A stretch of 64,000 nt of DNA from Sphingobium boeckii. GTDB taxonomy: Bacteria > Pseudomonadota > Alphaproteobacteria > Sphingomonadales > Sphingomonadaceae. The stretch covers positions 372,001 through 436,000 of the forward strand of contig NZ_JACIJC010000005.1 of assembly GCF_014199215.1 (NCBI RefSeq), written 5' to 3'. Below, one piece after another: positions 52,116 to 54,194 of the stretch. The first letter of the stretch is position 1; every line of letters starts with the position of its first letter. Position numbers and translations under genes: made by a program. The notes under the pieces are model-generated. The model did not search any database. It was not told the origin of the DNA and worked only from the letters and a program-made list of their open reading frames with translations.

Positions 52116-52937
52116 TCAGGCGTCGGTCTGGACTTCAGCCTCGGCAGCAGCAGCGGCAGGAATCTGCTCGTCTTCGGTTGCCGGGGCAGCCAGAGCCGGC
52201 TCGACCGGTGGCTCCACCATCGCGCCGATATCCACGCCGCGGGCCTGCTGTGCACCCTGGTTGCCCTTGGTGGCGGCTGCAGCGATCGAATCGCAGTAAA
52301 GGCGGATGGCGCGGCTCGCGTCGTCATTGGCGGGAACCGGGAAAGCGATGCCATCGGGCGAGACGTTCGAATCGAGGATTGCAACCACTGGAATACCCAG
52401 CGTGTTGGCTTCCTTGATCGCCAGTTCTTCCTTATTGGCGTCGATCACGAACATCACGTCGGGAATGCCGCCCATGTCGCGGATGCCACCGAGCGACAGC
52501 TCGAACTTGTCGCGTTCGCGGGTAAGCTGAAGCACTTCCTTCTTGGTCAGGCCATGCGTGTCGCCCGAAAGCTGCTCTTCGAGCGCCTTGAAGCGCTTGA
52601 TCGAACCGGAAATGGTCTTCCAGTTGGTGAGCATTCCGCCCAGCCAGCGATGGTTGACATAATGCTGACCCGAACGACGGGCGGCCTCGGCGATCGGCTC
52701 CTGCGCCTGACGCTTGGTGCCGACGAAGAGAACCTTGCCGCCACGCGCGACGGTCTGATCGACGAAATCGAGGGCGCGCGCGAACAGCGGCACGGTCTGC
52801 GAGAGGTCGATGATGTGGACGCCGTTGCGATCGCCGAACAGATACGGCTTCATCTTCGGGTTCCAACGGTGGGTCTGGTGGCCGAAATGGGCGCCAGCCT
52901 CAATCAATTGCTGCATCGAGACGACAGGTGCCGCCAT
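52116..52937 (-). CDS. rpsB: 30S ribosomal protein S2
   Basis: A 273-residue S2 with the signature [20 protein letters not shown] and the coiled-coil/core [17 protein letters not shown], ending in an Ala/Glu-rich tail. ATG 52937 is preceded by a very strong GGAAGGAG. It heads the run towards fabZ. Its promoter side faces the SOS-type promoter at 53095. Confidence 0.98.
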
Positions 52938-53094: not shown

Positions 53095-53123
53095 TTGACA
53101 CCAGAACACAATGAGAACATATC
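53095..53123 (+). promoter_or_regulatory. Promoter with TTGACA -35 overlapped by a LexA box
   Basis: A perfect -35 TTGACA at 53095-53100 and a weak -10 (CATATC at 53118-53123) with a 17-base spacer drive rightward transcription. A LexA box occupies the spacer, the classic layout of an SOS-repressed promoter. The transcript would have a leader of about 95 bases before the ATG at 53225. Confidence 0.6.
53104..53118. promoter_or_regulatory. LexA box 1 (GAAC-N7-GAAC)
   Basis: GAAC at 53104-53107 and GAAC at 53115-53118 are separated by exactly seven bases. This is the alphaproteobacterial LexA operator GTTC-N7-GTTC read on the minus strand. It lies between the -35 and -10. Confidence 0.75.
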
Positions 53124-53126
53124 GTT

Positions 53127-53141
53127 GTTCATGATCCGTTC
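53127..53141. promoter_or_regulatory. LexA box 2 (GTTC-N7-GTTC)
   Basis: GTTC at 53127-53130 and GTTC at 53138-53141 are again separated by exactly seven bases, in the opposite orientation to box 1, around the expected transcription start. The two boxes together form a large mirror-symmetric site. Confidence 0.7.
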
Positions 53142-53146
53142 CGGAA

Positions 53147-53180
53147 CTTATCCACAGGTCATGCTGTTATTGTGGATAAG
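53147..53180. promoter_or_regulatory. Inverted pair of perfect DnaA boxes / leader hairpin
   Basis: TTATCCACA at 53148-53156 and TGTGGATAA at 53171-53179 are perfect DnaA boxes in opposite orientation. With flanking bases they form a 10-bp perfect inverted repeat with a 14-base loop, inside the leader of the small membrane protein gene. This is either a DnaA-responsive site or an RNA hairpin. Confidence 0.6.
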
Positions 53181-53224
53181 AGCGCGGGGACCGGTCGAAG
53201 GCATATGGGTTCAGGAGTCGCAAA

Positions 53225-53455
53225 ATGGTCCAGATTTTCGCAGCTTTGCTTTTTATGAGCGCTTTGGTCGTATCGTTCGGCGTGATTATTTACATGCTGA
53301 TGGCCAATGCGGAGCGGATCACCGCAGCCCTCAATCGTGATCCCCAACCTGCGCCGTCGGTGCGCGTTCACACCCATCCGATCCGGCCGCGCGCGGCCCG
53401 CCGCGAATTCAGCCGGGGACCGAGCCGGCAGCAGTTGCTGCGCGCCGCCGCTTGA
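53225..53455 (+). CDS. Small single-pass membrane protein, probably SOS-induced; function unknown
   Basis: A 76-residue protein with one membrane segment (residues about 4-27, FAALLFMSALVVSFGVIIYML) and a basic, probably cytoplasmic tail ([19 protein letters not shown]). ATG 53225 has AGGAG seven bases upstream. The promoter carries two LexA boxes and the leader an inverted DnaA-box pair. Known SOS-induced membrane peptides in alphaproteobacteria, such as SidA of Caulobacter, block cell division; a like role here is inference from size, topology and promoter, not from sequence similarity. Its last 47 bases overlap the convergent pssA gene. Confidence 0.7.
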   Translation: MVQIFAALLFMSALVVSFGVIIYMLMANAERITAALNRDPQPAPSVRVHTHPIRPRAARREFSRGPSRQQLLRAAA

Positions 53456-54194
53456 CCCGGGCATAGCTTCTGATGCCGAACGGGATCATGAGCAGATAGA
53501 CTGCGCAGACCACCGACAGCGTGGCCCATGGCGCGGAAAAGAGCGCGCCGCCGATCAATGCGACCAGAGCGATCATCTCAAGCCGGATATTCCGCCGCAG
53601 CCGTAGCGACGACCAACTGAAGGTCGCCACGTTCGAAATCATCAGGAATGCAACGAAGGCGGTCCAGGGGGCCACGATATAGGTGGCCTTGAAGATCGGC
53701 AGGCCGAGCCACAGAAAGAGGAAGAGCGGCATCAGCGCCAGCCCGGCAGCGGCCGGGGCTGGAATGCCGGTGAGGAAACCCGCCGATTTATGAGGCTGAT
53801 CCTTTTCGTCGATCGCGGCATTGAACCGCGCCAGGCGCAGCGCGCAGCATACGGCATGGGCCAGCGAGAAGACCCAGCCGAATTGCGGCAAATATTGCAG
53901 TGACCAGAGATAGATGATGATCGCCGGTGAAACCCCGAAGGCGATCACGTCGGACAGCGAATCGAGTTCGGCCCCGAATCGGCTCTCGCCCTTCAGCATC
54001 CGGGCGATTCGGCCGTCCAGTCCATCCAGCACGCCGGCGACGATGATCATCATCGCGGCGCGTTCCCAATCCCCCGCGATGCCGAAGCGGATTCCGGTCA
54101 GTCCGCAGCAGAGCGCCAAGGCGGTGACCGCATTGGGCGCTAGCGCGCGGAGCGGGATCCCGCGGCGTGGATGGGGATCGGGGGCAAGGCTCAT
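53409..54194 (-). CDS. pssA: CDP-diacylglycerol-serine O-phosphatidyltransferase
   Basis: A 261-residue polytopic membrane enzyme of the CDP-alcohol phosphatidyltransferase family making phosphatidylserine. The signature Asp-Gly ... Gly ... Asp ... Asp motif is in [14 protein letters not shown] and [15 protein letters not shown]. About seven hydrophobic segments follow, ending in a basic tail. The start overlaps the psd stop (ATGA), so serine headgroup addition and decarboxylation are co-expressed. Confidence 0.95.

Follow-up and report, generated by a model that had tools for sequence, protein, structure and literature searches.

The closest described systems to the gene considered here are small damage-induced membrane proteins that hold back cell division. 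In the alphaproteobacterium Caulobacter crescentus, SidA is described as a small inner-membrane protein of 29 aa under LexA control that stops division through FtsW/FtsN (PMC4211646), and cells without lexA are reported to filament through SidA (PMC12700426). The same organism has DidA, a 71-aa single-helix protein described as a damage-induced division inhibitor (PMC4211646). SosA of Staphylococcus aureus is reported as a LexA-controlled protein of 77 aa with one N-terminal helix and a conserved part just after it, whose turnover is governed by its C-terminal end, a SosA without its last 10 residues accumulating in the cell (PMC6851548). YneA of Bacillus and ChiZ of Mycobacterium are likewise described as SOS-induced, single-helix division inhibitors, the helix of YneA binding FtsW, and FtsW has been proposed as a common target of such inhibitors, in a paper that calls its own models not of high confidence (PMC13396833). 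The Escherichia coli inhibitor SulA, by comparison, is soluble and targets FtsZ.

Here, we describe a gene for a 76-aa membrane protein in a window of 64,000 nucleotides from Sphingobium boeckii (contig NZ_JACIJC010000005.1, positions 372,001 to 436,000), which shares with SidA, SosA, YneA and ChiZ the traits of a short length, one predicted helix and a LexA-type box, and which might share with SulA an SOS-controlled division block, as proposed below. The likeness to SidA is drawn from descriptions and not from sequence, SidA being less than half as long, and to our knowledge SidA has neither a long Arg-rich tail nor an -AA end. DidA differs in being SOS-independent and under DriD, whereas the 76-aa gene has LexA boxes; YneA and ChiZ both carry a LysM domain, whereas Pfam finds none in the 76-aa protein. 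SosA, with which a C-terminal control of turnover would be shared if the -AA degron proposed here is real, comes from another phylum with no detected homology, and its tail is extracellular, whereas here the charges suggest a cytoplasmic one; the periplasmic parts of both SosA and YneA differ from the fast-changing, Arg-rich tail of the sphingomonad protein. In the open-licence literature, with subscription papers mostly outside the scope of the search, we found no paper that deals with the 76-aa gene or with an SOS-induced inhibitor of division in sphingomonads, and how sphingomonads halt division after DNA damage is not described in the open-licence papers found. SulA (PF03846) itself does not exceed the Pfam cut-off in any of 99 genomes of the family; the genome studied here has no match, and one other has a sub-threshold one (3.6e-4).

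The 76-aa ORF begins with an ATG and occupies positions 53225..53455 on the plus strand, as given by the ORF list and supported by relatives and by its codon-position pattern. Upstream of it, on the same strand, a -35 element TTGACA (53095..53100) and a ribosome-binding site AGGAG (53213..53217) can be read directly, and between them a motif scan finds two LexA-type matches: box 1, GAACACAATGAGAAC, of the form GAAC-N7-GAAC on the minus strand at 53104..53118, and box 2, GTTCATGATCCGTTC, of the form GTTC-N7-GTTC known from alphaproteobacterial LexA operators and facing the opposite way on the plus strand at 53127..53141. An earlier note on this DNA had listed the TTGACA, both boxes, the ribosome site and the 76-residue gene, and all are present where it placed them. 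In a promoter scan no sigma-70-type candidate at the gene had an acceptable -10, the -10 being weak. Of the 127 relatives that have a box, 108 show TTGAC no more than 30 bp upstream of the first one, against 6 of 510 control windows. Downstream, a pssA-like gene (CDP-alcohol phosphatidyltransferase, Pfam PF01066) at 53409..54194 on the minus strand is convergent with the ORF and overlaps it tail-to-tail by 47 bp, and upstream a divergent gene at 52116..52937, also on the minus strand, is presumably rpsB from the look of its sequence.

A search with the single sequence matched 17 of 298 family genomes, its own included, and several of these matches were spurious frames; a scan of the genome contigs with the 76-aa protein as query returned no relative, Pfam gave no match, and NCBIfam gave a single chance match far under its cut-off. 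A profile was made from an alignment of 12 sequences, the window's among them, all having an N-terminal helix followed by I-x-x-A-L, then a tail rich in Arg and, at the end, -AA. At E<=0.1 its matches cover 203 of 397 family genomes and 67 of 96 genera; we retained the 134, from 133 genomes, that have E<1e-3, leaving out those between 1e-3 and 0.1. A convergent pssA adjoins 128 of the 134 matches and a divergent rpsB 106, the gap to pssA ranging from overlap to more than 100 bp. Three matches were removed as spurious (L158, L159 and L166, with frames of 26, 32 and 170 aa, neither an adjoining pssA nor a box), which leaves 131 curated members. Relatives elsewhere in the class were considered and rejected: matches at E<=0.1 occur in 46 of 289 genomes, the own genome included, and are mostly partial stretches of longer frames, and the best match from another family (5.2e-4) contains a stop. 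Throughout, the counted genomes are related to one another and hence not independent.

An exact GAAC-N7-GAAC or GTTC-N7-GTTC lies within 250 bp upstream of 126 of 132 profile matches, L081 and L132 having too little upstream sequence for this count, whereas 522 windows taken from other parts of these loci have none. With their spacing changed to other values (0 to 15, excluding 7), the half-sites occur in 1 to 33 of the 132, and the reversed word occurs in 3. Three of the six matches without a box are the spurious ones. Among the curated members 127 of 131 have an exact box upstream, the rest being L132, with only 5 bp of upstream sequence, L163 and L165, with one-mismatch sites instead, and L130, where the ORF is present and nothing box-like precedes it.

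Two further samples were built from pssA instead of the protein. The first comprised 11 named loci, including Sphingomonas colocasiae, Sphingobium species, Tsuneonella litorea and an Erythrobacter MAG; an exact box lies beside pssA in each of them, accompanied in ten by an ORF of roughly 74 to 89 aa and in the eleventh, L255, by one of 54 aa as read by eye. The second took 20 family genomes that the profile had not matched and 10 that it had matched weakly, two of the 30 lacking a pssA match, and the exact box is found at 25 of the resulting 28 loci, 23 of the 25 with a hydropathy-filtered ORF of 54 to 111 aa. The two boxed loci without such an ORF are L283 (G030), where by eye only a 35-aa frame is left, and L285 (G007), where no clear ORF accompanies the box in a genome that is 86% complete; the three unboxed loci are G001 and G023, both with a site one mismatch away from the box and an ORF that ends in -AAA, and G024, which has neither box nor ORF. 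The sets overlap, L247 being G215 and L252 being G345. As a control outside the family, the best-scoring 28 pssA loci from other families, of 96 genomes matched, have no box between 100 bp before and 900 bp after the end of the pssA match, and one further family genome that lay inside this sample has it. Presence of the box at the family's pssA loci, and its absence from the 28 outside, mark the gene as a trait of the family, and one better recognised by its switch and its place than by its sequence, which makes the question of sphingomonad division arrest directly testable.

That the gene is under LexA control is thus very likely from this comparative evidence, which strongly supports the earlier note's proposal of an SOS-controlled sphingomonad membrane protein; promoters of orthologues lacking the GTTC-N7-GTTC spacing, the outcome named there as counting against it, were looked for and are not what the relatives have. 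The claim does need division in two respects. By number alone, the boxes in the window do not differ significantly from chance, three being present against 1.3 expected and at least three arising in 15 of 100 shuffles (genome-wide, the pattern occurs 90 times and its backwards reading 60), so that the argument of improbability holds through conservation and not through counting. Nor does the mirrored pair around the promoter, which the earlier note had pointed out, survive comparison: box 1 is conserved in front of the orthologues and box 2 is not, and among the 134 matches the window's alone has a GAAC box and a GTTC box both wholly upstream. In 19 matches two boxes share one direction, and in 7 there is a GTTC box alone; L025 has a GAAC box and a GTTC-type match overlapping the start, and the four other genomes of the same genus in the set have one box each. 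In this genome, box 2 may add to repression.

The genome has LexA and RecA, and the same motif lies near uvrA, recA, dinB, lexA and uvrD, as identified by Pfam matches. When 88 of its 90 sites are ranked by a matrix derived from the relatives without the window, box 1 takes rank 9 and box 2 rank 20, among sites near genes matching UvrA (8), MmcB (10), RecA (16), an IMS polymerase (17), RmuC (19), LexA (only 21) and UvrD (23), with a RadA-like domain set near the site of rank 11. For ranks 2, 4, 5, 6 and 15 the nearby genes are instead those of GFA, glycerate kinase, radical SAM, GH108 and C-5 methylase; because several top-ranked boxes thus accompany genes with no known SOS link, motif rank by itself proves nothing. 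Pfam assigned no family to 2 of 10 and 4 of 10 proteins beside boxes in two batches, one of these being, we assume from its look, ImuA. In Caulobacter, where LexA boxes take the same form, the box GTTCttgttatGTTC is reported at two SOS genes (PMC12700426), and in Sphingopyxis granuli under anoxia lexA, recA, radA, dinG and imuAB-dnaE2 are reported to rise, the 76-aa gene going unnamed in the available part of that account (PMC6472365).

Turning to the product, differences between close pairs fall on codon positions 1, 2 and 3 in the numbers 418, 296 and 809; the ORF is therefore coding, and a role for the RNA alone was rejected on the same pattern. AlphaFold, given 11 sequences, predicts helices at residues 2-27, 29-36 and 68-75 with a mean pLDDT of 78.3, a pTM of 0.41 and a low-confidence tail, and shows little else. 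The long N-terminal helix (residues 2-27, 53228..53305, plus strand), a predicted membrane helix, agrees with the single-pass membrane protein that had been proposed, and the hydropathy maximum exceeds 1.6 in 130 of the 131 members. Just after it comes a juxtamembrane I-x-x-A-L segment (residues 32-36, 53318..53332, plus strand), with [ILVM]xxAL inside residues 23-48 in 109 of 131. Net charge ahead of the helix is 0 in 126 members and -1 in 5, the first 15 tail residues carry mostly -1 to +2, and the tail as a whole has a median charge of +6, the members totalling 1069 Arg against 88 Lys. By the positive-inside rule, a cytoplasmic tail is the better guess, rather than a result. The tail is poorly conserved and in L255 and L283 nearly gone, the ORF having shrunk to almost the helix alone with its box kept; these two loci hint that the helix and juxtamembrane segment, also the size of SidA, may form the working core.

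Another conserved part is the extreme C-terminus. An -AA end is found in 120 of 131 members, a count somewhat biased by the presence of the C-terminus in the profile, against 5 of 179 ORFs of at least 150 aa in the own genome and, within the window, 1 of 57; in the pssA-based samples, 18 of 23 ORFs and 8 of the 10 named ones end in this way. The tmRNA tag of the genome is ANDNEALALAA, and ends of the -AA type feed proteins to ClpXP. A conserved end resembling this tag suggests that the -AA terminus, here RAAA at 53441..53452 on the plus strand, is a degron, and this feature, newly seen here, gives a simple prediction on turnover. Tail-specific proteases, for their part, prefer nonpolar ends, to judge from the title of a work cited in PMC6051672.

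A further simple prediction comes from DnaA-box words, also newly seen here. The exact word TTATCCACA lies at 53148..53156 on the plus strand and again, inverted, at 53171..53179 on the minus strand, both in the leader of the 76-aa gene; the genome has 16 against 7 of the reversed word. Among relatives, the exact word occurs in 16 of 129 leaders and in none of 506 control windows, and with at most one mismatch in 21 leaders and 1 control; of eight shuffled words, none occurs exactly in any leader, and each is found with one mismatch in 0 to 4. The 16 leaders span 8 genera and are clustered, seven in one genus and three in another. We infer from these words that DnaA may take part in control of the gene. 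In the predicted fold of the leader RNA the two words pair with each other. The leader as a whole has ordinary stability, with a z of -0.37 and 69 of 200 shuffles folding equally well, and an unusually stable RNA was rejected accordingly.

The damage switch is kept in nearly every relative, and so the gene may be the family's division brake after damage. By analogy with the systems above, we judge it somewhat better supported than not that the locus is a LexA-repressed single-gene SOS unit whose product, in the sphingomonad family, is a small inner-membrane checkpoint protein that delays division. In an undamaged cell, LexA would occupy box 1, which closely follows the -35 element, and block the promoter, the site being seen to be conserved and its occupation presumed; after damage, RecA would cause LexA to cleave itself and the protein would be made. 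Its N-terminal helix and I-x-x-A-L segment might then dock on a membrane protein of the divisome, most likely FtsW if SidA, SosA and YneA are a guide, and delay septum synthesis, until a protease acting through the -AA end cleared the protein and division resumed. That protease could be ClpXP if the Arg-rich tail is cytoplasmic, or a tail-specific one of the Prc/CtpA type if it is periplasmic. Of the roles considered, a division block through FtsW or its partners is the most probable, slightly to be preferred over all others taken together; identity with SulA was rejected, the 76-aa protein having no Pfam match. We regard it as possible, if rather doubtful, that the checkpoint is built unlike SidA, SosA or YneA, with an N-out/C-in anchor, an Arg-rich cytoplasmic tail and a self-limiting, tmRNA-like -AA tag, and with a switch combining LexA and, in several lineages, DnaA, such that both damage and replication state would be read before division is blocked.

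Other readings of an SOS-controlled membrane protein must be weighed against this one. A small, hydrophobic, LexA-controlled protein with a basic tail could also be a membrane-active peptide that depolarises the membrane and slows metabolism without binding the divisome; E. coli TisB, a peptide under LexA control, is reported to depolarise the inner membrane (PMC8145889). We think this unlikely, as the conserved I-x-x-A-L segment and C-terminus exceed what a mere disturber of membranes would need, and at about 75 aa the protein is far larger than TisB. The latter has a length of 29 aa. Alternatively, the Arg-rich tail might bind DNA, acidic lipid or a repair protein and so serve as a membrane tether that aids repair or chromosome positioning; its strongly positive charge and the marked preference for Arg over Lys speak for such a part, but a tail that is poorly conserved, and nearly absent from L255 and L283, makes it improbable.

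The neighbourhood suggests yet another role, regulation of lipid synthesis during the SOS response through PssA and Psd, exerted by the protein or by convergent transcription over the end of pssA. The convergent pssA at almost every match and the 47-bp overlap in the window are what it would lead one to expect, but the variable distance to pssA runs contrary to a fixed antisense design, and rpsB and psd also stay beside the gene, so that a stable gene order explains the adjacency; we give this reading little credence. Finally, the boxes might stand by chance before an ordinary or spurious ORF, as their ordinary number in the window would allow, yet box, ORF, codon-position pattern and ends are all conserved, which contradicts this to the point where it is scarcely conceivable. 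The division checkpoint is thus the reading that we prefer.

Several other boxes of the genome deserve mention in their own right. On contig C3, a gene for a GH108 lysozyme-like protein (L214, 1373-1921) has a LexA-type box ending 1 bp before its frame, and LexA-type boxes lie near MmeI-like and C-5 cytosine methylase genes (L212 and L241, on C3 and C6). Strong boxes with TTGATAT cores precede a radical SAM gene (L228, 245-1318) and a GFA-family gene (L174, 1384-1728), both of which are possible unlisted SOS genes.
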